From Marinobacter sp. SS13-12 (GTDB taxonomy: Bacteria; Pseudomonadota; Gammaproteobacteria; Pseudomonadales; Oleiphilaceae), in NCBI RefSeq assembly GCF_030227115.1, contig NZ_JASSUA010000001.1, forward strand, positions 1,426,001 through 1,490,000: a stretch of 64,000 nucleotides of DNA, in the 5' to 3' direction. Within the stretch, counting starts at the first letter, position 1. Each line of letters begins with the position of its first letter. A program made the translations under genes and the position numbers. The notes beneath the pieces are model-generated. The model saw only the letters and a program-made list of their open reading frames with translations, was not told the DNA's origin and did no database searches. Below, piece after piece: positions 33,532 to 53,792 of this stretch.

Positions 33532-34068
33532 ATGAATCAGATCCTCAAGAATGCACTGTTACCTGCCATGGTATTGGCGATCTCCTCAGGTGCCTACGCC
33601 GCCGGTGAACACGGCGGGCATCATGGGGGTGGCTCCGGGGGTGAGCCCGGGAAGGCGGAAGATGTATCCCGCACCATTGATGTGACCATGATGGATAACT
33701 ACTACGAGCCCGAGTCCATCTCCGTGAAGCCGGGAGAAACCATTCGCTTCCGCGTGAAAAACGAGGGTGCCCTGGTGCACGAGTTCAACATCGGCACTGC
33801 AGACATGCACGAGGCTCATCAGAAAGAAATGCAGATGATGGTTGAGCATGGCGTTATACAGGGCGGCAAGCTCAATCGCGACATGATGGAAATGGACATG
33901 GGCAATGGTCAATCCATGAAGCACGACGACCCCAATAGCGTACTGCTGGAGCCGGGTGAAAGCCAGGAGGTGGTCTGGAAGTTTACCGGCCAAGGCAATA
34001 TCGAATTTGCCTGCAACGTACCCGGGCATTACCAGGCCGGGATGTATGGCGAAGTCAATTTCAAGTAA
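33532..34068 (+). CDS. Periplasmic cupredoxin (copper-binding)
   Basis: A 178-residue secreted blue-copper-type protein. Signal peptide at about 1-24, then a His/Gly-rich segment (GEHGGHHGGGSGG), then a cupredoxin barrel. Likely type-1 ligands are His83 (LVHEFN), Cys161, His166 and Met171 (ACNVPGHYQAGM). A Met/His-rich insertion (HEAHQKEMQMM ... MMEMDMGNGQSM) could hold extra Cu(I). It is preceded by a TTCAG repeat box and followed by copA, so it is probably a copper chaperone or buffer of the copA-copB resistance system. Confidence 0.88.
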   Translation: MNQILKNALLPAMVLAISSGAYAAGEHGGHHGGGSGGEPGKAEDVSRTIDVTMMDNYYEPESISVKPGETIRFRVKNEGALVHEFNIGTADMHEAHQKEMQMMVEHGVIQGGKLNRDMMEMDMGNGQSMKHDDPNSVLLEPGESQEVVWKFTGQGNIEFACNVPGHYQAGMYGEVNFK

Positions 34069-34183
34069 CTCTGGCTAATGAACTCAGGTTACTAATTTCG
34101 GTTACTTACAAAGAAATGAATGACCGGGCCGGCCATAGTCGCTGCAGCCCGGTCTTAACGTGTTGCAGTCTGGAGCAAAATAG

Positions 34184-35860: not shown

Positions 35861-36606
35861 GTCGTATCCGAACTTTTATGGCCGTCAGCCTGTTGGGCCC
35901 GCTACTGCTTCCGGGTGCTGCAGCGGCTCAGGAAATGATTGCCGACACATCTGCACGGAAGCAGGCTCTGACCTCCTGGGGTGTGCAGTTCGAGGAGCTT
36001 GAATACCGTTACAGTGATAACGATGAGGAACTGGGCGTCTGGAATGCGGACTTCTTCTACGGCACCGACGATCTGAAAGTCCGATGGCTGACCAAAGGGG
36101 AGTACGCCATTGAGGAGCAGGCCTACGAGGGGCTGGAAAACCAGTTGGTCGGGCAGATTCCCATTTCCGACTTCTTTGACGCCAAGGCGGGTGTCCGATT
36201 CGACACACCCGAGGGGCCAGACCGTACCTACGCCGTTCTGGGCGTTGCCGGGCTTGCACCACAATGGTTCGAGATTGATGCCAATCTTTATGTGAGCGAC
36301 GAGGGCGACACCTCCGCGGAACTGGATGCCGAATACGAGTTGCTGCTGACCAACTACTGGATACTTTCAGCCACACTGGATGCCACCGTGGCGTTCAGTG
36401 AGGACCAGGAAATTGGCGTTGGCAAAGGGCTGGTTTCCACTGAAACCGGCCTGCGGCTGAGCTATGACCTTATTGATCGCGCATTCTCACCCTACGTTGG
36501 TGTGGTGCACGAGCGTAAGTACGGAGACACTGCCGATCTCGCCCGGGTTTCAGGCGGCAGTACCGAAGACTGGTTTGCGGTCGTCGGCGCCAGACTCACT
36601 TTCTGA
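35857..36606 (+). CDS. copB: CopB, outer-membrane copper resistance protein
   Basis: A 249-residue protein with a signal peptide (about 1-24) and alternating beta-strand pattern ending in Phe (VVGARLTF), as for an outer-membrane barrel. Sequence blocks WGVQFEELEYRYSDND, LKVRWLTKGEYA and TGLRLSYDL match the CopB/PcoB family. It lacks the Met-rich N-terminal repeats found in Pseudomonas CopB, so it is the short form. It overlaps copA by four bases and is followed by a strong hairpin. Confidence 0.9.
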   Translation: MSRIRTFMAVSLLGPLLLPGAAAAQEMIADTSARKQALTSWGVQFEELEYRYSDNDEELGVWNADFFYGTDDLKVRWLTKGEYAIEEQAYEGLENQLVGQIPISDFFDAKAGVRFDTPEGPDRTYAVLGVAGLAPQWFEIDANLYVSDEGDTSAELDAEYELLLTNYWILSATLDATVAFSEDQEIGVGKGLVSTETGLRLSYDLIDRAFSPYVGVVHERKYGDTADLARVSGGSTEDWFAVVGARLTF

Positions 36607-36773: not shown

Positions 36774-37130
36774 ATGATTAAACCACACAAAGCAACGAAC
36801 CAGGCGCAGTTCCTGTTACGCCGGAAACTGACCGTAAAGGGCCTTGGCGAGGATCAGTGGGACGAATTTATCCATGAACTCAACCATCATCCCTGTGTCG
36901 ACTTTGCCGAGCTGAAACCAGACAACCAGTTGCGTGTCACCTACGATGGAACTCATTGGACCATCGACGAGCTTCTGGCGCTGATTAAAGCTCACGGAGG
37001 CCATTTGAAGGCCGGGTGGTGGACCGAACGGAAACTGGCCTGGTATCGGTTTACGGACGACAACGTCCGCACCAATGCCAAACATGAGCCGTTTTGCTGT
37101 TCAAAGATCCCGCCGATGAAGCGTAAGTAA
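36774..37130 (+). CDS. HMA-like fold protein of unknown function
   Basis: A 118-residue protein. The core (about residues 15-80) has a strand-helix-strand-strand-helix order (RRKLTVKGLG, QWDEFIHELNHH, NQLRVTYD, IDELLALIKAHGG) like a heavy-metal-associated domain, but it has no CxxC at the usual loop. The C-terminus carries an adjacent Cys pair (PFCCSK). GAGGTG lies 7 bases before the ATG. The promoter has a TTCAG repeat box and the next gene follows by 27 bases. Metal binding is a guess from fold pattern and place. Confidence 0.7.
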   Translation: MIKPHKATNQAQFLLRRKLTVKGLGEDQWDEFIHELNHHPCVDFAELKPDNQLRVTYDGTHWTIDELLALIKAHGGHLKAGWWTERKLAWYRFTDDNVRTNAKHEPFCCSKIPPMKRK

Positions 37131-37157: not shown

Positions 37158-38513
37158 ATGAGCAGGGAGCAGGATAGAACCACTCGCTACCAGGAAGGCA
37201 GTCTCACCCTGCCGGGAACTGTCATGCTGGGTACCGGCGTGATGATTGGCGCCGGAATCTTTGCGCTGACCGGGCAGATGGCGCAGATGACCGGCGTTCT
37301 TTTCCCGCTGGCCTTTCTGGCCGCCGCCGTGATTGTCAGCTTTAGCGCTTACTCCTACATCAAGATCTCCAATGCCTGGCCCTCCGCAGGTGGCATCGGC
37401 ATGTACCTGTACAAAGCCTATGGAAACCGGTTGCCAACGGCGTTCAATGCCTTGTTGATGTACTTTTCCATGGTGATCGCCCAGAGTTTTCTGGCCCGCA
37501 CCTTCGGCTCTTACACCATGCAGCTTTTCGGCGGTGATGAAAGCGGCCGGATGGTGCCCATTCTCGGGGTGTCGCTGATTCTGGCGGCTTTTCTGATCAA
37601 CCTGCTGGGCAACCGGATGATTCAGGGTACGGCCTCCTTGATCGGCGTTCTGAAGATCGGCGGCATACTGATTTTCGGGGTGGTGGGGGTCTGGATCGCC
37701 GACAGCCTTTCTGTTGACTTCTCGAGCCCTGGAGAAGCCGGAACAATGGGCAATTTCCTGGGCGCAACCGCGCTTGGCATTCTGGCCTTCAAGGGCTTCA
37801 CCACCATTACCAACAGCGGCTCCGAAGTAATAGACCCCAAGCGGAACGTAGGGCGGGCGATCATTATTTCCATCGCGGCCTGCGTGGTGATCTATACGTT
37901 GGTCGGTTTTGCCGTTGCCAGCAACCTGTCCCTGGCTGAGATTGTCGAGACACAGGATTACTCCCTTGCCGCTGCCGCACGCCCGGCACTTGGGGAATAC
38001 GCTGTGTGGTTCACGGTTGCCATTGCCATGATGGCTACTGCCGGAGGCATTCTGGCCAGCATTTTTGCGGTGTCCCGTATGCTGGCGATGCTGACGGAAA
38101 TGAAACTGGTCCCCCACCGGCACTTCGGCATGCCCGGTAGCATCCAGAAGCACACACTGGTCTACACTGTAGTTCTGGGGCTGATCCTGACCGCATTCTT
38201 TGACCTCTCCCGCATAGCGGCGCTGGGCATTGTGTTTTACCTGATTATGGACATTGCCATCCACTGGGGCGTGCTTCGCTATTTGCGCGAAGATGTACAG
38301 GCCAAAGCGTGGGTGCCAGCTATGGCCATTCTGCTGGATTTGCTCGTCCTTGGCGGCTTTGTCTGGGTCAAGCTGAACACTGATCCGTTTGTCATCGGCG
38401 TAGCGGTCGTAGCGATGATTGTTATCGCGGTCGCAGAGCAGATTTTTCTGAAAAAATTCCAGGAAGCGGGGCACTCAGTACATGACGAATCTCATGCTCA
38501 TGATCACCATTAA
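37158..38513 (+). CDS. APC-superfamily permease with His-rich tail
   Basis: A 451-residue, twelve-helix amino acid/polyamine/organocation permease: LGTGVMIGAGIFALTG in helix 1 and FKGFTTITNSGSEVIDPKRNV after helix 6 are family signatures. The extreme C-terminus is HDESHAHDHH, an unusual potential metal site for this family. AGGAGG lies 4 bases before the ATG. It lies in the middle of copper genes and may transport a metal-binding amino acid or a metal complex; substrate unknown. Confidence 0.82.
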   Translation: MSREQDRTTRYQEGSLTLPGTVMLGTGVMIGAGIFALTGQMAQMTGVLFPLAFLAAAVIVSFSAYSYIKISNAWPSAGGIGMYLYKAYGNRLPTAFNALLMYFSMVIAQSFLARTFGSYTMQLFGGDESGRMVPILGVSLILAAFLINLLGNRMIQGTASLIGVLKIGGILIFGVVGVWIADSLSVDFSSPGEAGTMGNFLGATALGILAFKGFTTITNSGSEVIDPKRNVGRAIIISIAACVVIYTLVGFAVASNLSLAEIVETQDYSLAAAARPALGEYAVWFTVAIAMMATAGGILASIFAVSRMLAMLTEMKLVPHRHFGMPGSIQKHTLVYTVVLGLILTAFFDLSRIAALGIVFYLIMDIAIHWGVLRYLREDVQAKAWVPAMAILLDLLVLGGFVWVKLNTDPFVIGVAVVAMIVIAVAEQIFLKKFQEAGHSVHDESHAHDHH

Positions 38514-38540: not shown

Positions 38541-38762
38541 ATGATGGGAGATAACATGTTTGGCAACACCATGTGGGCGGGGCACTGGCTGTGGATGCTG
38601 GTGATTGCCATTGTGGTGGTGATTCCGGCCTGGCGTATTTGCCAGCGTACGGGCTACCCGGGCTGGCTGGGACTCCTGATCCTGATACCGATGGTGAATC
38701 TGATTCTGCTGTACGTCATTGCGTTCGGAGAATGGCCAGCCAACCGGGACAGAGAGGGATAA
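38541..38762 (+). CDS. Small two-helix membrane protein
   Basis: A 73-residue protein starting MMGDNMFGN, with two hydrophobic segments (about 17-35 and 46-63) separated by the short loop RICQRTGYPGW. A GGAGAG lies 7 bases before the ATG. It is five bases before the P-type ATPase gene, so probably co-translated. It is similar in type to small membrane proteins found beside copper ATPases, but no specific function is known to me. Confidence 0.7.
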   Translation: MMGDNMFGNTMWAGHWLWMLVIAIVVVIPAWRICQRTGYPGWLGLLILIPMVNLILLYVIAFGEWPANRDREG

Positions 38763-38767
38763 GTCAG

Positions 38768-41044
38768 ATGGACACCAAGGCTTCGCCATGGCAGAAGGAA
38801 TTTGAATTGATCGTACCCGGCATGGGTTCTGACCATTGCGCGGGCATTATCAGCAAGACGATTCGTCGTCTGGACGGTATTGAAGAGTTATCCACCAATA
38901 TAGCCAAGCACCGGGTCAGTGTCCGGGTTCAGGCTGACGGACCTGACGCGGAAGCCCTGAAAGCTGCTGTAGAAGGGGCAGGCTACGATGTGGCCGCAGT
39001 CACTGGTGGTGAGGACGCTGACCGGGAGGATGACACTGCCATTGATGAGGCCTACCTCAAGCTTGCATTGCGCAGGCTCTGGATTGCGGCACTGCCTACC
39101 ACGCTGATCATGGTGCTGATGGTGCCCCACATGTTCTGGCAGCCGGTGCCTGGGTATCTGGCAATCGTTGCCCTGCTGGCATTCCCGGTGGTGTTTCTTT
39201 TCGGCGGTGCAGCCACTCACAAGGCTTCATGGCGCTCCCTGAAAAACGGCACCTTCAACATGGATGTGCTGATTTCCATGGGCAGCCTGCCGCCCTATGT
39301 GATTGGTCTGGTTGGCTTTGTCTATCCGATGACCTCATTCATCGAAATGGCCGCCACCATTATGACGTTTCATCTGGTTGGCCGTTATCTGGAGGCGAAA
39401 GCCAAGGGCAAGGCATCAGAGGCGATCCGGAGGTTGCTCACCCTGGGAGCCAAGACCGCCCGTGTGGAACGGGATGGGGAGGAAGTCGAAATACCCGTCA
39501 AAGAGCTGGCGCCCGGCGACATCATGGTTGTTCGGCCTGGCGACAAGGTTCCGACCGACGGTGAGGTAGTGGATGGTGAGAGCCATCTGGATGAATCCAT
39601 TGCCACTGGCGAGTCGGTCCCGGTTTATAAAAGCGCGGGGGATACCGTTATCGGCGCTACCATGAACAAGGAAGGCCGCCTGAGGGTCAAGGCTACCCGG
39701 GTGGGCGGTGACACCTTCCTGGCCCAGGTGGTGAAGCTGATTGACGAGGCCCAGGGGTCCAGGGTGCCCATTCAGGAATTTGCGGACCGCATGACCGGTC
39801 GCTTCGTGCCGCTGGTTCTGATTATCGCGTTGGGCAGTCTTGTTGCCTGGCTGTTGGCAGCGGATACGCTCCGGCCAATCCTTGAGTGGGGCGCCGGCTT
39901 CCTGCCGTGGGTAGACCCAACTGCGGCTACACCGGTGCTGGCTATACTGGCGGCTATAGCGGTGCTGGTGATTGCCTGCCCCTGCGCACTGGGGCTGGCA
40001 ACGCCGACGGCGCTGATGGTCGGTTCGGGCGTTGGTGCCGAGCGGGGCATCCTGATCCGCTCTGGAGAGGCCATCCAGACCTTCAAGGACGTCAAGGTTA
40101 TGGTCCTCGACAAAACGGGCACCATCACCCGGGGGGAGCCGAAGCTGACTGATGTCGTAGCAGCCGAGGGTGTTTCGGAGACGGAACTGTTGGAGCTTGC
40201 CACCACGGTGGAAAATGCGTCTGAGCATCCCATCGCCCGGGCCATTGTGGACGGCGCCCGGGAACGAGGAATCAAGCCCGGGAACGTGGTTGATTTCCGC
40301 TCCACCGGTGCCCGGGGTGTATCTGGTACGGTCGGTGAGAAAATCGTGCTGATTGGCAATCGCCTCCTGCTGGAAGAGCATGGCGTTAATGGGCTGGAAG
40401 CCCTGGATAAGAGCCTTTCCGACCTTGAGGAACAGGGCAGAACTGCCGTCATCGTTGCCCGTGACGGTCAGGCCTGTGGCATTGTCGCGGTTGCCGACAC
40501 GCTCAAGGACGAATCGGTGGCGGCCATTCGTGCCATGCACGAGCAGGGGCTGCACGTAGTGATGATTACCGGTGACAACGAGCGCGCGGCCAAGGCGGTT
40601 GCCCGCGAAGTAGGCATCGACGAGGTGCGTGCCGGGGTGTTGCCGGAGGGCAAGGTGGACGCCATTCGGGAACTACAGAAAAAGTACGGCAACCATGTCG
40701 CTATGGTAGGTGACGGTATCAACGACGCCCCGGCCCTGAAACAGGCCAACGTGGGTATTGCAATAGGCGCTGGCGCGGATGTGGCTATCGAAGCTGCCGA
40801 CGTTACCCTGGTACGAGGCGAACTGTCCGGCGTTGTGGATGCCATGGTGTTGTCTCGCGCGACGTTCAGAAAGATCGTTGAGAACCTGCTGTGGGCCAGT
40901 GGCTACAATGCTGCAGCGATTCCGATAGCGGCTATGGGGCTTCTGCACCCGATGATTGGTGTGGTGGCAATGACCGCCAGCTCACTCTCGGTCATTGGTA
41001 ATTCGATGCTGCTACGGCGGCGTTACGACAGAGAGCGGCGATAA
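38768..41044 (+). CDS. Copper-translocating P1B-type ATPase
   Basis: A 758-residue metal ATPase. Order: an N-terminal HMA-like domain (about 10-75), eight helices, the CPC metal site (Cys404-Pro-Cys406) of Cu(I)/Ag(I) pumps, phosphorylation motif DKTGT (Asp448), HP motif (SEHPIARAI) and GDGINDAPAL. The HMA loop reads GMGSDHC where GMxCxxC is expected, so only the second Cys is present. The ATG at 38768 has a GAGGG about 9 bases upstream. Predicted to export Cu(I) from cytoplasm to periplasm, where CopA would oxidise it. Confidence 0.93.
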   Translation: MDTKASPWQKEFELIVPGMGSDHCAGIISKTIRRLDGIEELSTNIAKHRVSVRVQADGPDAEALKAAVEGAGYDVAAVTGGEDADREDDTAIDEAYLKLALRRLWIAALPTTLIMVLMVPHMFWQPVPGYLAIVALLAFPVVFLFGGAATHKASWRSLKNGTFNMDVLISMGSLPPYVIGLVGFVYPMTSFIEMAATIMTFHLVGRYLEAKAKGKASEAIRRLLTLGAKTARVERDGEEVEIPVKELAPGDIMVVRPGDKVPTDGEVVDGESHLDESIATGESVPVYKSAGDTVIGATMNKEGRLRVKATRVGGDTFLAQVVKLIDEAQGSRVPIQEFADRMTGRFVPLVLIIALGSLVAWLLAADTLRPILEWGAGFLPWVDPTAATPVLAILAAIAVLVIACPCALGLATPTALMVGSGVGAERGILIRSGEAIQTFKDVKVMVLDKTGTITRGEPKLTDVVAAEGVSETELLELATTVENASEHPIARAIVDGARERGIKPGNVVDFRSTGARGVSGTVGEKIVLIGNRLLLEEHGVNGLEALDKSLSDLEEQGRTAVIVARDGQACGIVAVADTLKDESVAAIRAMHEQGLHVVMITGDNERAAKAVAREVGIDEVRAGVLPEGKVDAIRELQKKYGNHVAMVGDGINDAPALKQANVGIAIGAGADVAIEAADVTLVRGELSGVVDAMVLSRATFRKIVENLLWASGYNAAAIPIAAMGLLHPMIGVVAMTASSLSVIGNSMLLRRRYDRERR

Positions 41045-41075
41045 GCTCTGAACTTATGAACCATTGGAGGTAATC

Positions 41076-41462
41076 ATGTCATACACGATCAATCGAATTA
41101 TCACGGATGAGGGTTTCGAGGCCGTGGACAAAAGAGCACGCCAGGCACTTGCCGATCACGGCTTCGGGGTGCTGACGGAAATTGACGTCAAGGCCACCAT
41201 GAAGAAAAAGCTGGATAAGGAAATGCCGGCATATCTCATCCTGGGAGCCTGTAACCCTGCTATGGCCTGGGAAGCTATCGGTATCGAACCTCGTGTGGGC
41301 GCCATGCTGCCTTGCAACGTCATTCTTCGTGAGGTGTCGGAGGGTGTAGAGGTCAGCGCGGTAGACCCTGTGGTTTCCATGGCCGCCATTGATAATGACG
41401 AGCTCAAGCAGGTTGCCGGGAAAGTCAGAGATATGCTTTCTGAGGTTGTTCAGGCGATCTGA
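41076..41462 (+). CDS. DUF302 family protein
   Basis: A 128-residue soluble protein of the DUF302 family: FGVLTEIDVKATMKKKL, YLILGACNPAMAWEAI and the LPCNVILRE strand are family hallmarks. Members often neighbour metal or thiosulfate genes and may bind a ligand at the conserved Cys residues (GACNP and LPCNV here). GGAGG lies 5 bases before the ATG. It follows the ATPase by 31 bases in the same direction. Confidence 0.85.
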   Translation: MSYTINRIITDEGFEAVDKRARQALADHGFGVLTEIDVKATMKKKLDKEMPAYLILGACNPAMAWEAIGIEPRVGAMLPCNVILREVSEGVEVSAVDPVVSMAAIDNDELKQVAGKVRDMLSEVVQAI

Positions 41463-41542: not shown

Positions 41543-42859
41543 ATGAGGCTCAGAGGGTATCCGGGCGATGTCCTGATCCTGGGTGTATTTCTACTGCCAG
41601 TCATCGTAACCGCCCCGGGCCTGCCCTGGGGTAGTCAGGGCTGGCTGTATTCGGTGGCAGAAATGGTCGGGGTTCTGGCTCTGTCTGCGTTTCTGGTGGC
41701 AGGCATGTTGTCCGCCCGTATTCCCGGTACGGATCGGTGGTTTGGTGGGCTGGTGCGGGTCTGGACCATGCACCGCTGGCTGGGATTTTCGGCCTTTATG
41801 CTGGTGATGGTCCATGTGCTGTTGTTGGCGTTCGCCACCTTACCCTTCTCAATTAGCCGCAGTATAGAAACCCTTTTTCCGCCGCTAAGCCAATGGGAAG
41901 TGTGGGCCGGCTGGGCAGCCTTTGTCACCCTGCTGATTTTTATTGCGCCTACCCTCGGTTTTTTTGGCACCCTGCATTATCAGCACTGGAAGCGGTTGCA
42001 CCTGCTGTCCGTGCCAACGCTGGTTCTGGCGCTGATCCATACCCTGATGCTGGCGTCCGTGGCCTGGGTGTGGTGGCTGTTATCGGCGCTGGCATTGGCG
42101 GCCATTGCCTGGCGCAAGGTGTTATCGCCCCGCCTGGCCAGAAAGCCCTATGTGGTTGAAGAGGTTGATACCCTTGTCCGCGATGTGGTGGAACTGCGTT
42201 TGCGCCCACGAGGCAAAGGGATTCGCTGGCAGGCCGGCCAGTTTGTGTACCTGTCGCCGATGGACCGCTCGCTGGCGGCCGGGTATGGGGAAGAGCACCC
42301 CTACACCATTGCCTCTGCCTCGGGAGATGATGAACTGCGGATTGGTATCAAAGCGGTAGGGGATGCCACCCGGGCACTGGTGAACATCAAACCGGGCGCT
42401 GAAGTGCGCATTGAAGGGCCCTACGGAACGTTTTTTGAGACGACGGGCTTTGGAGTGCCGGGTTCCGGGTCACAGGAGCCGCAGCGAAAGCAGCTCTGGT
42501 TGGCAGGTGGCATTGGCATCACACCGTTTGTGTCTGGCGCCAGGGAGAAGATGACAAGTACGGATGCAGGTCGCGATGCCTGTCTGTTCTACCTGGCCAA
42601 CCGGCCCGAGCGGGCTTATTACCTGGATGAACTGGTCCGGATCGCCGAAGCCTGCGACACCTTTGCAGTCCACGCCCACTACATGAACGAGAACGGTGTC
42701 ATCACCCGGGATTACCTGGCACGACACTGCCCTGATTTCGCCGAGCGAGAGGTCTACCTGTGTGGGCCGCCCGGCATGATTGCCCATCTGAGAGCCCTGC
42801 TCAGGCACGAGGGTGTGCCTGCCAATCGCATTCACACGGAGGCTTTTGATTTCCTATGA
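41543..42859 (+). CDS. Ferric-reductase-like flavocytochrome
   Basis: A 438-residue membrane oxidoreductase. The N-terminal six helices (about 1-200) form a ferric-reductase-like haem domain with His residues in MHRWLGF, VHVLLLA, HYQHWKRLHLL and LIHTLML. The C-terminal half is a ferredoxin-reductase-type domain: FAD site EEHPYTIAS (about 250), NAD(P) site WLAGGIGITPF (about 326) and YLCGPPGM. It would pass electrons from NAD(P)H across the membrane, possibly to metal or to the following protein, whose start overlaps its stop. Confidence 0.85.
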   Translation: MRLRGYPGDVLILGVFLLPVIVTAPGLPWGSQGWLYSVAEMVGVLALSAFLVAGMLSARIPGTDRWFGGLVRVWTMHRWLGFSAFMLVMVHVLLLAFATLPFSISRSIETLFPPLSQWEVWAGWAAFVTLLIFIAPTLGFFGTLHYQHWKRLHLLSVPTLVLALIHTLMLASVAWVWWLLSALALAAIAWRKVLSPRLARKPYVVEEVDTLVRDVVELRLRPRGKGIRWQAGQFVYLSPMDRSLAAGYGEEHPYTIASASGDDELRIGIKAVGDATRALVNIKPGAEVRIEGPYGTFFETTGFGVPGSGSQEPQRKQLWLAGGIGITPFVSGAREKMTSTDAGRDACLFYLANRPERAYYLDELVRIAEACDTFAVHAHYMNENGVITRDYLARHCPDFAEREVYLCGPPGMIAHLRALLRHEGVPANRIHTEAFDFL

Positions 42860-43713
42860 ACAGTAACCGAATTGCTTATACCGGATTTGTTGCCTTTGTC
42901 AGTGTGGTGCTGACCCTGTTGGTGGTGAACATGGTGCAGAGCCGCACGGAATCACAACCTGCGGATGACGGTGTTAATGCCGATAGTGATACCAATGGTG
43001 ATGGCGAGACGGTTTATCGCCTTGATCAGGTGGCAGAACATAATAGCGCCAGCAGTTGCTGGAAAGTCATTGAGGGCGTTGTGTACGACCTTACCGAGTA
43101 TCTGCCCAACCACCCCACAGAGGAAGAAACCTTCACCCGCTGGTGTGGCAAAGAAGCGACCTCCGCCTGGCAGGACAAGGGCAATGGTCGTCCCCACAGC
43201 CCCCGTGCTGCTGCGCGCCTCGAGTCTTACCGGATTGGTGTCATTGAGGGCAGTGAATCTGCGTCAGCTTCGGTTGAGCCGGAGCCGGCTTCTGCCAGTG
43301 CAACCGCGGATACTGTTGATGGTCGTTCGGGGCAGATGATGCTGGCCCTGGCACCGGGCAACTATCTGGATGGCACCTACCGGGGCAACTTCATTGATCG
43401 TGGCCAGATTCAGGTCAGCCTGCAATTCCGGCTCGAGAATGGGCATATCGAGGCCATGTCTTACCGGCACCTGTTCTATGGTGACAAAAACTATCTGACC
43501 ATGGATGAAGGTGCAGAGCTCTACCCGGTACTACGCCAGTATCAGCAAATCACCGAGCGCCTGGAAGGTGCGCCGCTGACTGCAATCTTCCGGCTGTATC
43601 AGCCCGGAGAGGTGGTAGATGATATCGACGGATACTCCGGTGCTACGCTAAGGGGGGCAAAGGTGCTGAGCGCCTTTCGGGATGGCCTGAATCGGGGCGT
43701 CTACAGCTGGTAG
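42856..43713 (+). CDS. Membrane-anchored cytochrome b5 / FMN-binding protein
   Basis: A 285-residue protein with an N-terminal anchor helix (about 7-27). A cytochrome b5-like domain follows (about 50-130), with haem His candidates in NHPTEEETF (where HPGG is usual) and RPHSPRA. A C-terminal FMN-binding domain (about 165-283) has DGYSGATLRG, the Ser/Thr site for covalent FMN in NqrC/RnfG-type domains. The ATG overlaps the preceding gene as ATGA, so the two likely form one electron chain. It may hand electrons to a periplasmic acceptor or to the complex-I-like membrane complex encoded next; this is inference. Confidence 0.82.
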   Translation: MNSNRIAYTGFVAFVSVVLTLLVVNMVQSRTESQPADDGVNADSDTNGDGETVYRLDQVAEHNSASSCWKVIEGVVYDLTEYLPNHPTEEETFTRWCGKEATSAWQDKGNGRPHSPRAAARLESYRIGVIEGSESASASVEPEPASASATADTVDGRSGQMMLALAPGNYLDGTYRGNFIDRGQIQVSLQFRLENGHIEAMSYRHLFYGDKNYLTMDEGAELYPVLRQYQQITERLEGAPLTAIFRLYQPGEVVDDIDGYSGATLRGAKVLSAFRDGLNRGVYSW

Positions 43714-43801: not shown

Positions 43802-44164
43802 ATGAGCGCTGGGCAACAATACCTTCTATTACTGGGCATGGCGCTTGGCGTCGTTTGTGTGGTTCTGAGCCTTTACGGGCTTGGCCGCGCGATAGGCCCG
43901 ACACGTCAGGAGCCGGGAAAAGATGTGCCGGCAAGTTCTGGAGTGCTGTCGCGGGATCCGGTTTGGGGGCGCTATCACGCGCGCTACTACGGATACGCGC
44001 TGCTGTTTCTGGCTTTCGATATGGAGATGGCGTTCATGTACCCATGGGCAGTGGTGTACAAGGAGGTTGGAATGGTTGCCTTGCTTGATATGGGCGTGTT
44101 TCTTGCCATTCTCTTTCTTGGCCTGCTCTACGGATGGAGTCAGGGGGCTTTCAGGCGGCAATGA
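43802..44164 (+). CDS. nuoA: Complex-I-like subunit A (NuoA type)
   Basis: A 120-residue three-helix protein. The conserved NuoA loop is present as [25 protein letters not shown], close to the usual FDxExxFLYPWA, so the acidic residues are kept. GGGGG lies 5 bases before the ATG at 43802. The next gene starts within its stop (ATGA). It heads an eight-gene set with no genes for the NADH-oxidising subunits E, F and G or for NuoI. In strict complex I this subunit packs beside NuoH. Confidence 0.85.
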
Positions 44165-45891
44165 GTTCTTATCCAGCAATAAACGCAACAGGCGCACGGC
44201 AGAAACGGTCCTCAATGCTGCAGAGGCTGGTTTCCCGGGCGCTGGCGCGCAATCTGAGCTGTCTGATTGTTCCGGGCCCGGAAGTTGCCTTGGCGCATGG
44301 TCTGGACGTAACCGCTGCAGGCTTGCGTATCAGCACTACGCCTCGCGATGCCGCCGTGCTCCTGATCGTCGGAGAGCTTTCGGAAAAAATGGGCGATGCC
44401 GTGACAGTGCTCTACGCGCAGATGCCCCGGCCGCGCGCTATTCTCATGGTAGGCGGGCAGGCACCGTCAACTTTACCTGGCGCCGACATTTCTGCAGGTC
44501 TCTCGCAAGAGGAACTGAACGAAGCCGTAGTTCGACTACAACGTGCATTCGCCGATAGTGCCTTTGCAGCCTCGCCGGAGGACTTCGACGCCGATGTCCT
44601 GCACGCCAGGATCGAGTATGTCTGCCCCATGCACCCGGAGGTCGTTGAAGACGAGCCGGGCAGCTGCCCCAAATGCGGCATGGACCTGGTAGCCCGCGAA
44701 GCCGGGGAATCGACGCCCGACCATGATCATGAACACCATCATGACGAACACCAGCATGATCACGAACACCAGCACCATGGCCACGAGCACGAGCACGAGC
44801 ACTGCCATGATCACGAGCACCAGGGTCATCATGATCACGGTGAACATGACCACGGTGGACATGATCATGAAGGGCACGATCACGGCGGTCACGATCATGG
44901 TGCCTCGGGATTTATGTCGATGATTGAAGTTACCAAAGACCTGCCACGCAGCGCCGACGGCCTGCAGATGGACTGGCTTGAAGTGCCATTCGGTCCGGTC
45001 TTTCCTGGCTTGCCCGGTGGTCTGAAGTTGACGCTGACGCTCGACGGTGACGGCGTGACCGAAGGGCAGGCGACCTCCCTGGTGGGTATGACCACTGAGG
45101 CCGAAGAGGGTGAAGGGAATGAAGAAAGCGAAGAAAGCGAACAGATAAATGCCGGGACCTTTATCGAGCATCTGGCCTCGGCAATGCCGCTGGCACCGGT
45201 GAGCTACCGACTGTTGGCCTGTCTGGCAATCGAGAGAGCGGCCGGTCTGAATGACGATCAGGCGACCACTCAGGCCCGCAATGGCGCCCTTGAGCGTGAG
45301 CGCATCGCCAGTCACCTGGGCTGGCTGGCACAAGTGGGGCGCCAGCTCGGATTCGCCTGGCTGACGCGGCGGGCTTCGACTCTGCAACTCAAAGTCAGAG
45401 ACGCTGACCGGGACAAGCTTGCTGAGCTGGAGCCAGCGCTGCGCACATTGGGTACCCATCTTGAGCGAACGCCTTTGCTCAAGTCGCGGCTTAAGGGTAT
45501 CGGCCTACTACCACCGCAATCTTCTGCTCTGCGCGGCCCGGTAGCGCGTGCGGCGCATGAAGGCGGAGATGCCTGGGCACGTCTGTGGCAACGTCTGGCC
45601 GAAATTTCGGCCAGCCTCGAATTTATCAGGTCGAGCGGCGAGCCCGAGCTGGCATCCCTGCGCAACATTGGCGATGTTTCAGGAGCCGGTGAGGCAACCG
45701 TTGACACCCCGCGCGGCGAGGCCCGGTTAAGTCTGAAACTGGAGCGTGGAAAGGTGAAGTCATACGAGCTGGATACTGCCTGTAGTCACCATATCGATCT
45801 GGTCCCGAAGCTTGTTGAGGGCCAGGAGCTGGGCGACGCGCTGCTGGCAGTCGGATCGCTGGATCTTTCGCCCTGGGAGGTAATCTCGTGA
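44161..45891 (+). CDS. NuoB-like / metal-binding / His-rich / NuoD-like fusion
   Basis: A 576-residue protein with four parts. First, about 20-140 resembles NuoB ([35 protein letters not shown]), but the Cys ligands of cluster N2 are missing apart from one Cys. Second, 153-180 is a heavy-metal-binding domain, YVCPMHP then [10 protein letters not shown]. Third, about 187-245 is a His-rich tract with about 29 His residues. Fourth, about 250-576 resembles NuoD ([43 protein letters not shown]). It replaces the catalytic NuoB-C-D arm. Translation couples to nuoA and nuoH. Quinone reduction is doubtful; metal binding is very likely. Confidence 0.8.
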
Positions 45892-46784
45892 CCGTCGCTA
45901 TCGTTTTATTGGCATTGTTTGGCAGCGCCTGGCTGCTGGCCGTCATCGAGGGCTGGATCACGACTGGCCGCCTGAGTCCGGCCGCGCCACTTTACAGCGG
46001 CCTGGCTCACCTCGGTCGTGAATCCATTGTACCGCGCTCGCCAGACAGGGTCTTTTTCGAGGCGGCGCCGGTGCTGCTAATGGTTGTGGCGGTCCTTGGT
46101 ATGGCGGTCCTGCCGCTGGCGCCGGATCTGGTCATCGCGGACCTCGGCACCGGCGGGCTCTTCATCAATGCGGCCCTGGCCTATGTGCTGGTCGCGGTGA
46201 TCATGGCGGGCTGGGGGCCGGATGGCGCCTACGCGATGATCGGCGGCTGGCGCTTTCTGGGCCAGCTTATTGCCTATTCCATGCTTATTGTCATGCCGAT
46301 CACGGCCGTGGCCATGCGCGCCGAGTCTCTGGTGAACACTGCGATCGTTGGTTCCCAGGAGAGCCTGTGGAACATTGTCTACCAGCCCCTGGGCTTCGTG
46401 CTGTTCTTCATTGCGGCCATGGCGCTGTCGTTCCGCGCGCCATTCGATCTGCCCACCGCGGAGGGGGAGCTTGGCGGCGGTGTGGATGCCGAGTACACCG
46501 GCGTTCGCCTGGCAGTGTTGCGCCTGGCTCGCCTGACGCTGGTGGTTACCCTGGCTTCGACAACCACGGTGTTCTACCTCGGTGGCTGGTACGGCCCGCT
46601 GCTGCCGCCCTGGGTCTGGAGCCTGGTCAAGACCCTGGCCGTGGCCGTGTCGATGATGCTGGCCGGCCGCTACCTGCCACGCATTCGCGAGGCGGATCTG
46701 ATGCGGTGGTGCTGGGTTCTCGGGATTCCCCTGGCGCTGGTTAATATCATTATTGTCGGTTTACTGATCCTGGTGGTTCCCTGA
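45888..46784 (+). CDS. nuoH: Complex-I-like subunit H (NuoH type)
   Basis: A 298-residue eight-helix protein. The family block [24 protein letters not shown] (about 185-208) is clear. The usual N-terminal quinone-loop GPNRVG is absent and replaced by [14 protein letters not shown], so quinone-site chemistry is probably changed, in line with the lost N2 ligands in the preceding fusion. Start is GTG, overlapping the preceding TGA (GTGA) with GGGAGG 7 bases upstream. Confidence 0.85.
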
Positions 46785-47320
46785 TGTACGCACAGGCTTT
46801 TTTCGTTGCCGTTTTCGGGCTGGCCGCCATCGGCTTTGGCGTGGTGGTGTTTCGCACGTCATCCATGGTCCGTTCCGCGCTGGCGCTGCTGTTTTCACAG
46901 ACTGCCGTCGGCTGCATGTTTCTGGCGATGCAGACAGAATTTCTGGGTGTACTGCAGATCATGATGATGGCCACGGAGATGAGCATCATGGCCATCTTCA
47001 TGGTGATGTTCATGATGGATCCCGGTGGGCTCGGCGGTATGGACATGAGCCACCAGAAGCGTTTCTCTATCGGTGCCGGGGTGAGTGCGGCCATCGTTGC
47101 TATCGCTGTTGCGCTACTGTCGGACTGGGGACCCGCAGCGGAGCAGGTGCCGGACGCGGAAGCGCAGACGCGGGCGTTGGGTGTGGAGTTACTCGGGCGC
47201 TCAATGATGATCTTCGAAACTGCAGGGATCACTATCCTGACCGCGATGATCGCGGCAACGGCGGTGGCAATACCGGTGAAAAACCTGGCGGGTAAAGACG
47301 ACAAGGAGGCATCGGAATGA
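46784..47320 (+). CDS. nuoJ: Complex-I-like subunit J (NuoJ type)
   Basis: A 178-residue five-helix protein. The third-helix region EFLGVLQIMMMATEMSIMAIFMVMFM, with its acidic residues, and the SSMVRSALALLFSQTAVGCMFLAMQ start match NuoJ. The helix with a pi-bulge is not discernible by eye. The start overlaps the nuoH stop as TGATG. Confidence 0.82.
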   Translation: MYAQAFFVAVFGLAAIGFGVVVFRTSSMVRSALALLFSQTAVGCMFLAMQTEFLGVLQIMMMATEMSIMAIFMVMFMMDPGGLGGMDMSHQKRFSIGAGVSAAIVAIAVALLSDWGPAAEQVPDAEAQTRALGVELLGRSMMIFETAGITILTAMIAATAVAIPVKNLAGKDDKEASE

Positions 47321-47628
47321 CCGTAGTTCTGATAGTAGCGCTTCTGACCGGCGCCATCCTGTTCGGTATCGGTCTCTATGGCGCGCTGTCCCAGACCAAT
47401 CTGGTGATGATCATGATGGGCGTGGAGCTGATGCTGGCGGGCGCCATGGTGAACCTGGTCGCTTTCTGGCGCTTTCTGCATCCCGAGGTCTATTCCGGCC
47501 AGATGTTTGTGCTGGTGGTGATGACGGTTATGGCACTGGAGATGGCGGTCGGCTTTGGCGTCGCCATTGCCCGCTTCCGGGCCAAGGGCTCGGTCGAGAT
47601 GGAAGAAGCGGAGGACCTGAAAGGATGA
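47317..47628 (+). CDS. nuoK: Complex-I-like subunit K (NuoK type)
   Basis: A 103-residue three-helix protein related to MrpC. The two membrane Glu positions of the family are kept in MMGVELMLAGAMVNL and in VMALEMAVGFG. This suggests that the proton path of the membrane arm is intact. The ATG overlaps the nuoJ stop as ATGA. Confidence 0.87.
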   Translation: MTVVLIVALLTGAILFGIGLYGALSQTNLVMIMMGVELMLAGAMVNLVAFWRFLHPEVYSGQMFVLVVMTVMALEMAVGFGVAIARFRAKGSVEMEEAEDLKG

Positions 47629-49524
47629 ATGCAGTGCTCCTGCCGATACTGCCGCCGCTGATCGCCGCCCTGGCCGTGTTGATACTGCGCCGGGGTGGAG
47701 CTGCGCTGGCCCTGGCTGGCGCAACGCTCAGCCTGGTGGGAAGTCTCTGGCTTCTGGCCCGGGTGGCAGGTGGTCAGGCCGAAACTCTGCTTCTGCCCGG
47801 TCTGCCGGACATGCCCTTGCGGCTGGTCGCCGGACCAATGACCTCGCTGGTGGCGGTGGCGGTGGCTACGGTGGGTACATTTGTGCTGATTTATGCCGTC
47901 GGTTATATGAAGCAGGAGTCCGGTCAGGCGCGCTTTTATGCCGTGATGACCCTGTTCCTGGCCAGCCATGCAGGCGTTGGTGCTGGCTGGCGACTGGATT
48001 CTGCTGCTGGCGGCCTGGGAGTTGATCGGTTTGTGCAGTTACCTGCTGATCGGCTTCTGGTTTCAGCGGCCGGAAGCTGCGAACGCAGCCAGCCGCGCAT
48101 TCCTCTATACCCGCAGCGCTGATCTCGGGCTTTACGTTGCGGTATTCATGCTTATCGGGTCGGCAGGTACCAGCGAGATTACCGCCTCCCTGGAATCAGG
48201 CAGTAGCGCATCGACCACTGCCGGGCTTCTGTTGCTGCTGGCCGCCATGGGCAAGTCGGCCCAGGTACCCCTGCAGGACTGGCTTATGCGCGCCATGGCC
48301 GGCCCGACACCGGTCTCGGCGCTACTGCACTCGGCCACGCTGGTTGCGGCGGGCGCTATCCTGCTGATCCGGTGGGCCCCGCTGCTGACTCCCGAGACAC
48401 TGTTCGCCGTTGGGCTTGTCGGTGGTATCACCACGGTGGCAGCCGGGGTGATTGCGCTTGCCGAGCGTGATCTCAAACGCCTGCTCGCGGCTTCCACGGC
48501 CAGCCAATACGGCCTGATGCTGATTGCTGTGGGCGCCGGGGTTCCGCTGGCCGCGCTGTTGCATCTGCTCGCCCATGCCGCCATCAAGAGCAGCCTGTTC
48601 CTGGCCGCTGGCGACTTCCAGCATGCCCGCGAGGGTACCGGTTTCGATCAGCTGAAGGGCGTTGGCCACGCCAGGCCCTGGGCTTTCGCCGGCTTTGCGC
48701 TGGCAGCACTGGCACTGGCCGGCATCCCACCGCTGAGCGGGTTCTTCTCCAAGGATGCAGTGATTGCCGCCGCTCTGTCGGGGCAGGGCGCCGCCTGGCT
48801 TGGACCCCTGGCCCTGGCAGGCACTCTGCTGACCGGCGCCTATATGGCCCGGGCTTTACGCTTGCTCTGGCAGGGCTCCGGCGATACCCGGCCGGTCGCC
48901 GGTACTGGCTGGATGCGCGCTGGCATCTGGGGTCTGGCGATCCCCGCCGCAGGCCTGGGTCTGGCCTTTGGTCCACTCGAAACAATGCTTGATCTGCCGG
49001 CGCCGGAAACCGCAGGTATCGGCGCCATATTGTCCGGACTCGTCGCCGCCTTGGGTGGTCTGGCGCTGGGCTGGCTGGTGCCGGTCAAGCGTCTGCTTGG
49101 GCCTGCCCATCAATGGGCAGCATCGGGGCTAGTGGTTGCGGGCGGGCTCACCGCCTGGGTAGGTCGGCCCGTAATGGCTGTTGCCCGGCAGTGTGACCGT
49201 CTGGAAGGCCACCTTTATGCGGCCGCGCTTGGCGTCGGCCATACAGCTCTCACCATTGCCCGCGGGGGCGAGCGCCTGGAACAGCGCCTGTATCTGGCCG
49301 TACTTGGCGTCGGTCGCGCCAATCTGGCGGTGGGTCGTTGGGTTCGGGGCGGGGATGAGCGTGGTATCGACGGTCTGATCTTCGCCCTGGTGGCCGGTGT
49401 GCGGGCCCTGGGCGCGCGGGCGAGAACCCTGCAAAGCGGCCTGATCCATCACAGCCTCGCGATCAGTGCCGTAGCCACCGCTGTGCTCCTGGCCATCCTG
49501 TTTTCAGCTTCACTGAGTTTCTAA
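47625..49524 (+). pseudogene. nuoL: Complex-I-like subunit L (NuoL type), frameshifted
   Basis: An antiporter-like subunit whose frame breaks at about 47961-47970. Codons from 47625 read to ...MTLFLAS and then lose homology. From the ATG at 47968, one base over, the sequence continues as the expected MQALVLAGDWILLLAAWELIGLCSYLLIGFWF. Removing one C near 47967 joins them into a 632-residue protein. Antiporter features are intact: Lys-Glu helices (MGKSAQVPLQDWLMRAM, LLHLLAHAAIKSSLF) and GIPPLSGFFSKD. The C-terminus has three imperfect repeats (about 49192-49440). A real inactivating mutation, a sequencing error or programmed frameshifting are all possible; no classical slippery heptamer is seen. 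Confidence 0.8.
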
Positions 49525-49539
49525 AGGAACCCTGTACTC

Positions 49540-51009
49540 ATGTTACCACTCGTATCTCTGACCCTGTTTTTGCCACTCGTCGGCGCTGTGCTGATTCTGT
49601 GTTTGCCGAAGCCGACGGCACGGACGGTGCACAGCATAGCGATCGTCAGTGCCGCCCTGACTCTGGTTGGCGCTCTGGCCATGTGGCTGCAGGGCGTGAG
49701 TGGTGACGGCTTTTCCCAGGTCGAAGAGCTGGAATGGATGCCGGCCATTGGCGCCGCCTACCGGGTCGGGGTTGATGGCATCAGCCTGCCGCTGGTGCTG
49801 CTGAGTGCCGTGCTTTTCCTGGTTTCTCTCATCTACGCTTCGTCGCTTCGCGACCGTCCGAGAGCATACGTGGCCTTGATCCTGCTACTTGAGACCACGG
49901 CAATCGGTACCTTTACCGCCCTCGACGGGATCCTGTTCTACGTCTTCTTCGAAGTTTCCCTGGTGTCGATGTATTTCATGATTGCCGGATGGGGACATGA
50001 AGACCGGCAGCGGGCCGCCCTGATGTTCTTTATCTACACCCTGCTGGGCAGCCTGCCACTGTTGCTTGCGATTCTGGGGCTTTACCTCGGTAGCCCTGAT
50101 CCCACCTTTGATATGCGGGCCTGGATTGCCAATCCTCCACTGGAGGGGGCGGCGGCCATGTGGGCGCTGATCGCCATGCTGATCACCTTTGCGGTCAAGA
50201 TTCCTGCGATACCCCTGCATACCTGGTTACCTGCGGCACACGTGCAGGCACCGACCGTTGGTAGCGTCATCCTGGCGGGCATCATGCTGAAATTCGGCAC
50301 TTACGGGCTGGTGCGCTTCGCCCTGCAAATGACCCCTGACGCTTTCCGCGAAGCCGGCATCGTTGTTCTGGTTTTCGGTGTCGTCAGCGCGATTTACGGT
50401 GCCTTTGCCGCCCTGGCACAGACCGATCTCAAGCGCCTGGTGGCCTATACCTCAGTTAATCACATGGGTTACGTGATCGTCGGCGTCTCCGCGGCTGCGC
50501 TAACGCTGGACCCCGCAGTGCGTGCCACCGCTCTGGACGGCGCCGTGCTGCAGATGTTCAGTCACGGCCTGGTCACCGGTGCCCTGTTCTTCCTGGTGGG
50601 CATGATTCAGGAGCGCGCTCATACCCGCGAAATGGGGGAGTTTGGCGGCTTGCTCAAAACGGTTCCATTGCTTGGCTGGTCCTTTGTGCTGGCGGCTTTC
50701 GCGTCTCTGGGTCTCCCTGGCCTGGCGCACTTCCCGGCAGAGTTCCAGATATTTCTCGCCACCCTGGGCACTACTCCCATCGCGGTTGTGGTGATTCTGG
50801 GTATTGCCATTATCGCCGGAACCTTTCTCAAGGCACTGCGTGAAACCTTTCTGGGTGAGCCCCGGGATCGCTGGAATAAAATGCCGGATCTGAGCCCGCG
50901 AGAAATTCTCGCGGTGGCGCCCCTGCTGGTGCTCACCGTTGCCACCGGCGTGGCGCCGTCCTGGGTGTTGGACGTTATTCACCGGACCACATCGGCACTG
51001 GTGCTGTAA
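49540..51009 (+). CDS. nuoM: Complex-I-like subunit M (NuoM type)
   Basis: A 489-residue fourteen-helix antiporter-like subunit. Marks: FYVFFEVSLVSMYFMIAGWG (helix 5 Glu), ITFAVKIPAIPLHTWLPAAHVQAPTVGSVILAG (helix 7 Lys and broken helix), LAQTDLKRLVAYTSVNHMGYV and LGLPGLAHFPAEFQ. The key charged residues for proton transfer are present. The ATG lies 15 bases after the nuoL stop, with AAGGAA about 10 bases upstream. Confidence 0.93.
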   Translation: MLPLVSLTLFLPLVGAVLILCLPKPTARTVHSIAIVSAALTLVGALAMWLQGVSGDGFSQVEELEWMPAIGAAYRVGVDGISLPLVLLSAVLFLVSLIYASSLRDRPRAYVALILLLETTAIGTFTALDGILFYVFFEVSLVSMYFMIAGWGHEDRQRAALMFFIYTLLGSLPLLLAILGLYLGSPDPTFDMRAWIANPPLEGAAAMWALIAMLITFAVKIPAIPLHTWLPAAHVQAPTVGSVILAGIMLKFGTYGLVRFALQMTPDAFREAGIVVLVFGVVSAIYGAFAALAQTDLKRLVAYTSVNHMGYVIVGVSAAALTLDPAVRATALDGAVLQMFSHGLVTGALFFLVGMIQERAHTREMGEFGGLLKTVPLLGWSFVLAAFASLGLPGLAHFPAEFQIFLATLGTTPIAVVVILGIAIIAGTFLKALRETFLGEPRDRWNKMPDLSPREILAVAPLLVLTVATGVAPSWVLDVIHRTTSALVL

Positions 51010-52361
51010 TGGGTCGTGATCTCGCCTTATTAGCTCCGGAAATTGCCGTCCTGTTGACGGCTGTCGGTGCCCTGATCGCGGAGATGCTGCGCCGGCCACG
51101 GATTTCGCTGATCACTGCTGTCGTCGGCCTGGTGGTTGCCACGGGGCTGGCCCTGCGCCTGCTCGGCACAGACACAACGATATTTGGCGGCAGTTTCCGG
51201 ATCGATACACTAAGTACCTGGGCCAAGCTTATCCTGTTGCCGGCTACGGTGCTTTCGATGTTGCTGGCGCGGGTGGATGTCCGGGGGAGCGCCCGCGAGG
51301 GTACGGTCTACAGCCTGCTGATATTTTCCACCCTGGGCGCCCTGGTTCTCGCAGGGGCAGCGGATACCATGTTTCTGGTGCTGGGCACGCTGCTGACCGG
51401 TTTGGCGACCTTCGCCCTGGTTGCCTACCCGGACACCGATCCGGCGACCGAAGCCGCCATGAAATTCTTTGTATTCGCTTCGGTCACCACATCGATCATG
51501 ATTTTCGGACTGAGCTACTGGTTCGGTGCCTCCGGCTCTACGCTGATCGCCGATCTGCCGGCCATGGACTCGATGCCGCTGGCCGTTATTCTCGGGTTCG
51601 TGGCTGTAGTTGTGGGGCTGGGCTATAAGGCATCACTGGTTCCGTTCCACTTCTGGGCACCCGATGCCTACGAGGGCGCCCCGCTGTCGATTGCCGCCTA
51701 CCTGTCCGTCGTGCCCAAGATTGGTGCCCTGTTTGCGCTCACTCAGGTGGTTCGTGACCTGCCGCCGGAAATTGGCTGGACTGCCGTCATCGCAGGCCTC
51801 GCAGTGCTGAGCATGACCTACGGCTATCTTGCTGCACTGGTGCAGGATAACGTTATCCGGCTGCTGGCGTATTCGTCGATTGCCCAGTCCGGCTATTTCC
51901 TGCTGGGTATACTGGCGGTGGGCTCCAGTGAGCTGGCCTTACCATCGATCATTCTGTTCGCCGCCGCCTATGCCGCCATGAACCTGGGCGCTTTCGCCGT
52001 TGCGGCCACAACCGGGCGCACTCTGAACGATTTTGACGGGTTGGGACGCACGCGACCGCTGATGGGAATCGCGATGGTGATGTTCCTGCTGTCGCTGGTC
52101 GGCATTCCGCCACTGGCCGGCTTCGTTGGCAAATTCATGCTCTTCGGCGCTGCCATCGATGCCCAGTTTACCTGGCTGGCTGTGGCGGCGATTGTCAACA
52201 GCGTGCTGTCGCTGGCGGTGTACCTGCGGATCATCGTGCCGATATACAGGTCTGGGGAGTCGGCGTCCGCTGCAACGGACCCATGGCATGGAATCGTGGT
52301 GATTACAGCGTTTGCGGCCACGCTGATTATCGGCCTGGCGGCCCAGCTTTTCATCGTCTAG
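51009..52361 (+). CDS. nuoN: Complex-I-like subunit N (NuoN type)
   Basis: A 450-residue antiporter-like subunit. Features: GYKASLVPFHFWAPDAYEGAPLSIAAYLSVVPKIG (Lys helix and broken helix), VQDNVIRLLAYSSIAQSGYFLLG and GIPPLAGFVGKFMLF. The start overlaps the nuoM stop as TAATG. It ends the operon, 11 bases before the converging ATP-grasp gene. Confidence 0.92.
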   Translation: MGRDLALLAPEIAVLLTAVGALIAEMLRRPRISLITAVVGLVVATGLALRLLGTDTTIFGGSFRIDTLSTWAKLILLPATVLSMLLARVDVRGSAREGTVYSLLIFSTLGALVLAGAADTMFLVLGTLLTGLATFALVAYPDTDPATEAAMKFFVFASVTTSIMIFGLSYWFGASGSTLIADLPAMDSMPLAVILGFVAVVVGLGYKASLVPFHFWAPDAYEGAPLSIAAYLSVVPKIGALFALTQVVRDLPPEIGWTAVIAGLAVLSMTYGYLAALVQDNVIRLLAYSSIAQSGYFLLGILAVGSSELALPSIILFAAAYAAMNLGAFAVAATTGRTLNDFDGLGRTRPLMGIAMVMFLLSLVGIPPLAGFVGKFMLFGAAIDAQFTWLAVAAIVNSVLSLAVYLRIIVPIYRSGESASAATDPWHGIVVITAFAATLIIGLAAQLFIV

Positions 52362-53672: not shown

Positions 53673-53792
53673 TCGGACACCACTGTAAGGGAGTTGCTTT
53701 ACCAAATGGGTGAAATCTGAGTCCTGGTCTAAAGCCGGGCGTTTGCTGGTGATACTGATCCACGTCAAATAGATGCATCTTCCGGAATAGTT

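Follow-up and report, generated by a model that had tools for sequence, protein, structure and literature searches.

A family of complex I-like operons with lost redox sites and a predicted metal-binding insert, possibly encoding a metal-gated ion translocator

How the quinone cavity of respiratory complex I (NDH-1) is coupled to distant proton movement in its membrane arm has long remained unanswered. The N2 iron–sulfur (Fe-S) cluster of this enzyme is bound by four Cys residues of NuoB, and His and Tyr residues of NuoD belong to the quinone site. The 11-subunit complex I-like enzymes keep NuoB, C, D and I, Fe-S clusters and quinone reduction, and CxxC pairs in the large subunit of group 4 hydrogenases are the NiFe ligands. 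Mrp antiporters run NuoL/M/N-type subunits redox-free and, to our knowledge, have no homologue of NuoH, NuoA, NuoB or NuoD; the DAB/Mps transporters have a DabA-type (DUF2309) partner. Here we describe an eight-gene complex I-like operon from a stretch of 64,000 nucleotides of the genome of Marinobacter sp. SS13-12 (contig NZ_JASSUA010000001.1; hereafter, the window), along with the family to which it belongs. The operon combines the membrane subunits of complex I with a single peripheral fusion protein that carries a heavy-metal-binding domain (HMBD), and the family amounts to a natural experiment in which the coupling chain is mostly conserved and the redox chemistry is lost.

The presence of such an operon among the copper genes of Marinobacter is already in print. 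A report on M. atlanticus CP1 describes a nuoADHJKL cassette of seven complex I-like genes, with nuoMN said to be missing, that forms part of a copper-resistance operon and was expressed with the copper genes at 160 mV; from location and expression, the authors suggested copper redox as an energy source (Eddie et al. 2021, PMC8233155). Judged by this published description rather than by a comparison of sequences, the cassette is an operon of the same kind. Within the open-licence PMC literature, this is the only paper that we recognized as describing the operon, and no published description of the redox-site loss, the breadth of the family or its plasmid copies was found there; the terms copper and heavy metal are absent from PMC13399641, as are nuo, NADH, complex I and hydrogenase from PMC11371751.

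The operon extends from the nuoA ATG at 43802 to the nuoN stop codon at 52361 (the listed nuoA open reading frame (ORF) begins with TTG at 43790), all genes being encoded on the plus strand. These boundaries match those given by a sequence-only reading of the window made by a model, which correctly recognized an eight-gene operon with seven membrane subunits but overlooked a frame break in nuoL near 47,966. Adjacent genes overlap by 1–31 bases, with the sole exception of a 15-base gap between nuoL and nuoM. Naming with Pfam and NCBIfam models gives the order NuoA, fusion, NuoH, J, K, L, M, N: all seven NDH-1 membrane subunits are present (nuoL being frame-broken in the window), with Pfam matches above the cut-offs for A, H, J, K and the three antiporter-type subunits and with NuoL, NuoM and NuoN as the top-ranked NCBIfam models for the last three genes. 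As the sequence-only reading had noted, NuoC, E, F, G and I are missing among the genes of the operon; the NuoF-type matches of the window genome sit on other contigs. The promoter and terminator scan yielded signals no more frequent than in shuffled sequences. The broken gene is a single open frame in four distinct relatives compared (L110, L111, L021 and L004; the figures for L109 are those of L021), and because it is unbroken in all of them, the break is, judging from these sequences, a recent event or an assembly error confined to the window strain or its assembly.

Two quinone-module subunits appear to be joined in the peripheral fusion. Besides the HMBD, the protein matches the 49-kDa subunit family (PF00346, E 1.2e-06) and, below threshold, NuoB; in the predicted structures, the HMBD is flanked by two folds, one of NuoB and one of NuoD type, in keeping with the earlier description of the sole peripheral subunit as a fusion, its metal binding being predicted. 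The redox sites of both folds are gone in the rows examined. When 66 NuoB-like rows (65 loci and the window) were aligned to Escherichia coli NuoB, none had Cys at the columns of the N2 ligands C63, C64, C129 and C158, the C63/C64 columns falling into an alignment gap. By eye, a lone LSC in 22 rows may match one Cys of the first N2 pair, and a CC pair is present within the aligned stretch of one row, L027. An F[MI]SM start was the selection rule for the 70 NuoD-like rows (69 loci and the window), which leaves members devoid of this motif uncounted; FMSM is nevertheless present in 44/44 rows of alignment A2, which was picked without this rule. At the columns of the E. coli NuoCD quinone-site residues, H220 is replaced by Phe (69/70) or Ile (1/70), H224 by Pro (67/70) or Ala (3/70), and Y273 by Pro (66), Ala (1), Leu (1) or a gap (2). 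No CxxC pair was detected in the NuoD-like part of any of the 70 rows. Finally, the alignment shows that NuoH lacks the segment corresponding to E. coli RYGPNRVG, in line with the earlier observation of an altered NuoH quinone loop.

What the fusion appears to have gained is a metal site. The window protein contains the HMBD motif CPMHPE...CPxCGM, and the domain has matches in the N-terminal portion of a copper P-type ATPase (8ovl, 3rfu); it is likely, as predicted from sequence, a metal-binding site between the two quinone-module domains. One to ten HMBD copies are found in 59 of 60 single-gene fusions, L056 having none, a frequency biased by the use of the HMBD as one of the two seeds of the locus search. 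A search with the HMBD-less L056 protein as the query returned 535 homologues, and 115 of the 120 listed contain PF19335. His-rich linkers replace the HMBD in the Thiogranum paralogue L182 and in P0151, P0173 and P0174. Furthermore, MDHGxM-like stretches directly precede the NuoD part in many members, M261, M263 and M279 are invariant in 44/44 rows, and C363 is present in 40/44. We take these Met/His stretches to resemble the copper-binding motifs of copper-resistance multicopper oxidases.

The membrane arm presents a different picture. Residues were counted in E. coli numbering after rows shorter than 0.7 or longer than 1.5 times their E. coli counterpart had been dropped (A 1, H 4, J 16, K 7, L 2, M 0, N 2); the rows for H to N include one ordinary nuo set, L020, and wherever a lone dissenting row keeps the E. 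coli residue, it is this one. NuoL E144, D178, K229, H254, K305, K342 and K399 are present in 69/69 rows and H334 and D400 in 66/69; NuoM E144, K234, K265 and E407 in 67/67; NuoN E154, K158, K217, K247 and K395 in 64/64; NuoK E36 and E72 in 64/64; and NuoA D79, E81 and K46 in 66/66, E51 not being kept. The NuoJ Y59 column holds Met in 54/55 rows. Among NuoH residues, E228 (67/67) and D213 (66/67) are conserved, and E157 and E216 are kept in L020 only (1/67). The main charged residues are thus kept, and the predicted ion path is largely conserved, though incomplete. As an aside on nuoN, four lysines (K158, K217, K247 and K395) stay where E104, E133, K295 and H305 go.

The family spans Gamma- and Alphaproteobacteria, Rubrobacter and Chloroflexota, with some copies borne by plasmids. 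The locus scan, seeded with two queries, kept 77 of 582 confirmed matches, and the family protein listing comprises 120 of 1329. All eight genes are present in 57/76 of these family loci; the raw count was 58/77 and was corrected because L080 is merely an HMBD-bearing P-type ATPase and the H–N genes assigned to L020 are the ordinary nuo set. The 18 loci incomplete by the raw count are mostly cut by contig ends. Given this completeness and dN/dS values of 0.03–0.25 for every gene of the operon, indicative of purifying selection, the operon is no chance assembly, and the check for a decayed duplicate, which the sequence-only reading had named as a possible refutation, came out against decay although nuoL is broken in the window. 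In a NuoH tree of 39 rows (midpoint-rooted for drawing only), 22 family rows, drawn from all of these groups, form one side of a 100/100 branch with a long stem, drawn with 13 ordinary NuoH proteins and apart from 4 hydrogenase-type rows, which make a 100/100 group of their own. The family is sparse, occurring in 5 of the 398 phylum genomes sampled (8 were positive, of which 3 matched the HMBD stretch only) and 20 of 120 of the genus, the window genome being included in both counts, and it is present on 12 of 72,556 plasmid records, 4 of them typed conjugative. Because the family is both sparse and partly plasmid-borne, this distribution suggests horizontal spread. Two individual loci stand apart in their layout: in Pseudogemmobacter (L064), nuoM and nuoN are apparently absent and the fusion is apparently in two frames, and on the L020 contig the ordinary nuo H–N set lies upstream of a family nuoA and fusion gene.

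The family complex need not, by this genomic comparison, borrow complex I parts. The window genome also has an ordinary nuo operon, located separately on contig C2 (INDEPENDENCE). Among 17 host genomes searched, 6 have a single NuoH, the family one, and in three isolates among these six (the hosts of L018, L004 and L007; genome completeness not reported) neither a NuoB match nor a second NuoH was found; since these three hosts apparently offer nothing to borrow, the complex would have no need for complex I modules. One Thiogranum genome (L028, L182) and one Chloroflexia genome (L073, L148) each encode two family-type NuoH proteins in separate places plus an ordinary NuoH.

The genomic context of the operon points to copper in several lineages. 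Of 19 same-genus loci, 13 have genes for both a multicopper oxidase and CopB, a combination seen in none of 20 control windows from seven of those genomes; the locus count leaves out G484 and the window's own copy, includes two loci of G500 and partly repeats loci L004–L024. One of the 20 controls matched the P1B-type ATPase at a looser threshold, and 2–3 matched the kinase and regulator queries. Copper genes (heavy-metal P-type ATPase, multicopper oxidase, CopB or CusA-type pump) are annotated within 12 kb of the operon on 10 of 12 plasmids, compared with 0/6 control windows on six family plasmids; three of those six windows held genes for other metals, one being a DUF411 gene, which we presume may be copper-related. 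A wider query set placed a copper gene in the fetched flank of 15/22 Marinobacter, Halomonas and Alcanivorax loci, and in Rubrobacter tropicus nuoA is preceded, in this order, by genes for a heavy-metal P-type ATPase, a metal-sensitive regulator and a copper-binding protein. The copper linkage recurs in distant lineages and is not universal. Early clustering of the neighbours gave a mixed picture (two permeases, DUF6629 and a fatty acid cis/trans isomerase); the annotated plasmids showed the link to copper more clearly.

Metal-gated ion movement is the best reading of these data because the ion path is mostly kept, the electron and quinone sites are lost and a likely metal site is gained. We propose, with moderate confidence, that the complex is a redox-independent cation/proton translocator gated by metal, probably copper; the coupling of ion flux to metal binding suggested by the sequence-only reading thus stays the best idea, to which we would give an even chance. 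Under this proposal, the complex would be a complex I derivative that is no longer a redox enzyme and whose membrane arm retains most of the charged ion path; two quinone-module subunits would have been fused, the Fe-S cluster and quinone site emptied, and the space between them filled by a metal-binding domain and its His/Met-rich linker. We infer that a cytoplasmic metal, most likely Cu+, would bind to the fusion at a site over the former quinone cavity, thereby gating or driving the membrane arm, which would move H+ against another cation, by antiport or as a controlled H+ flow, under metal stress. If metal indeed sets the arm in motion, or if the complex is a metal-controlled antiporter, coupling could be studied without electron transfer, and bacterial copper resistance would acquire a new kind of component that is already on plasmids, some of them conjugative. 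The bolder formulation, a complex I-family machine in which Cu+ at the former quinone site takes the place of electrons in driving or gating long-range ion movement, possibly exports the metal and spreads on plasmids with copper resistance, is a tentative one that we consider somewhat doubtful.

Several observations weigh against metal-gated ion movement. The earlier claim that proton-path residues are retained in the K, L, M and N subunits holds for the main ones but not for NuoM E108 (1/67 rows) and K173 (0/67) or for NuoN E104, E133, K295 and H305 (each in 1/64, L020), so the arm is an imperfect copy of the pump. Two fusions, P0204, whose linker is acidic and poor in His, and L056, whose linker is short, have neither an HMBD nor a strongly His-rich linker. 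The placement of the operon in a copper gene block, and its co-occurrence with copper genes, are strong in the genus and its relatives and on plasmids but weaken elsewhere: outside the Marinobacter/Halomonas/Alcanivorax group, a copper gene was detected in 12/53 loci (alphaproteobacterial, with one from Chloroflexia) and in 0/22 other gammaproteobacterial loci, many of the fetched flanks being short, and two plasmids, H9 and H11, have no copper gene within 12 kb. A looser neighbour search adds a few matches (e.g., L070, L071 and L077). The idea of a universal copper linkage is weakened by these counts. Antiport without redox chemistry is argued by analogy with Mrp, NuoH may have an alternative quinone site, and the window copy of the complex may be inactive through the nuoL break.

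Other explanations would give the metal a different role. In a proton-driven metal exporter, Cu+ would be delivered to the former quinone cavity by the HMBD and the His/Met linker, and its export would be powered by the proton-motive force acting through L, M, N and K. The relation of the HMBD to copper P-type ATPases, the R. tropicus neighbourhood and the invariant Met residues of the fusion are all compatible with such a function, but no metal path through NuoH is known and copper-gene loci often hold an exporter of another type nearby, which makes this possibility rather unlikely. A further possibility is a copper-redox pump, in which Cu(I) at the HMBD would donate electrons to quinone and so drive pumping. 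This was put forward for M. atlanticus from location and expression (PMC8233155), and the likely metal site between the quinone-module domains would fit it; nevertheless, with the quinone His/Tyr retained in 0/70 rows, the N2 ligands in 0/66 and the quinone-side segment of NuoH missing, we regard it as distinctly improbable. The unusual electron donor envisaged as another option by the sequence-only reading is not supported, the N2 ligands and the quinone His/Tyr being gone in the rows examined, and the candidate for a general donor, the ferric-reductase and cytochrome b5 pair next to the operon, was rejected, being present in only 2/19 genus loci and 0/77 fetched loci.

The metal domain might also be accessory to a general Na+/K+/H+ antiporter for ion balance, merely buffering metal or sensing stress. 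The marine or saline origin of many hosts according to their records, the largely conserved ion path and the 22 gammaproteobacterial loci with no copper neighbours would be expected of such a system; the near-constant HMBD or His-rich insert and the copper linkage in several lineages would not, and we consider it improbable. That the operon supplies spare parts for ordinary complex I or is a decaying duplicate hardly merits belief: the window genome does have an ordinary nuo operon and a broken nuoL, but three host genomes have neither a NuoB match nor a second NuoH, the genes are under purifying selection and the family forms a separate NuoH clade.

The surroundings of the operon in the window are listed in Table 1. 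On the opposite strand upstream are genes for a histidine kinase, a response regulator and a MerR regulator. Several neighbours recur in other loci, the APC-type permease among them. Elsewhere in the family, 11 loci, most of them gammaproteobacterial, have less than 4 kb from the operon a gene for an unnamed membrane protein that by eye is permease-like (cluster 8; L052:7537-8718 and relatives). Sulfitobacter and Paracoccus plasmids (L196, L199, L200) carry, near the operon, a short extra gene annotated as a proton-conducting transporter membrane subunit, with genes for a DUF6629 protein and a sigma factor alongside. The fatty acid cis/trans isomerase cluster (L036:3483-5984) adjoins the operon in five loci and hints at membrane stress.

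Table 1. Coordinates of the operon, the parts of the fusion protein and neighbouring genes in the window
Feature	Coordinates	Strand	Evidence or remark
Copper cluster: cupredoxin, multicopper oxidase, CopB	33532..36606	+	
Small conserved protein, no Pfam/NCBIfam match	36660-37130		also in 11/77 fetched loci
APC-type amino acid permease	37158..38513	+	recurrent: 15/19 genus loci, 18/77 fetched loci
Heavy-metal P-type ATPase with HMA domain	38573..41044	+	upstream of operon
DUF302 protein	41064..41462	+	upstream of operon
Ferric-reductase-like flavoprotein	41543..42859	+	inconstant neighbour
Cytochrome b5-domain protein	42856..43713	+	inconstant neighbour
nuoA-like	43802..44164	+	PF00507 1e-25
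Peripheral fusion: NuoB-like, HMBD, His-rich linker, NuoD-like	44134..45891	+	alternative start ATG 44161 possible
NuoB-fold domain without N2 [4Fe-4S] ligands	44206..44568	+	bounds approximate
HMBD, CPMHPE...CPKCGM	44617..44694	+	PF19335 E 3.8e-14
His-rich linker	44707..44907	+	low model confidence
FMSM motif	44911..44922	+	M261 and M263 here, M279 further on; invariant in 44/44 rows
NuoD-fold domain	44941..45888	+	GPVFPGLPG in place of E. coli GPNHPSAHG
nuoH-like, shortened after TM1 (RYGPNRVG segment absent)	45888..46784	+	PF00146 6.4e-58, alignment, tree
nuoJ-like	46784..47320	+	PF00499 2.8e-19
nuoK-like	47317..47628	+	PF00420 6.4e-18
nuoL-like, frame-broken	47625..49524	+	ORFs 47625-48122 and 47968-49524
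nuoM-like	49540..51009	+	TIGR01972 494.8 bits, above cut-off
nuoN-like	51009..52361	+	TIGR01770 294.5 bits, below cut-off 332.6
464-aa protein, no Pfam/NCBIfam match	52374-53768	-	also in 7/77 fetched loci

Comparison with the described systems bears out the earlier statement that the complex is neither complex I, nor a group 4 hydrogenase, nor a plain Mrp antiporter, and we rejected each of these assignments, as well as that of a decayed duplicate (dN/dS 0.03–0.25, 57/76 loci complete). With NDH-1, the family shares the seven membrane subunits, the NuoB and NuoD folds and most of the ion path; unlike NDH-1, it has no NADH module, NuoC or NuoI, N2 ligands (0/66) or quinone His/Tyr (0/70), and it possesses a metal-binding insert. 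The 11-subunit complex I-like enzyme (e.g., of Desulfitobacterium) likewise has no NADH module, but the family operon also lacks C and I, and the N2 ligands and redox sites are gone. The family has in common with the group 4 hydrogenases and the related Mbx, MBS and Ehr complexes an antiporter-like arm that bears B- and D-type subunits, and a PFGPxxPGL stretch is common to the family and the Mbh alpha subunit of Pyrococcus furiosus; the family differs from group 4 [NiFe] hydrogenases in having NuoA, in lacking both CxxC in the NuoD-like part (0/70) and the NuoB Fe-S ligands, and in the position of its NuoH, apart from the hydrogenase rows. No DUF2309 (DabA-type) domain was detected with Pfam among ten proteins scanned, which sets the system apart from the DAB/Mps transporters. 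As in Mrp cation/proton antiporters, NuoL/M/N-type subunits occur here without redox chemistry, but unlike in Mrp, they are accompanied by homologues of NuoH, NuoA, NuoB and NuoD, all four. Compared with the M. atlanticus cassette as described (PMC8233155), the operon of the window includes M and N, and the present analysis adds the HMBD, the disappearance of the N2 ligands and of the quinone residues, the breadth of the family and its plasmid copies.

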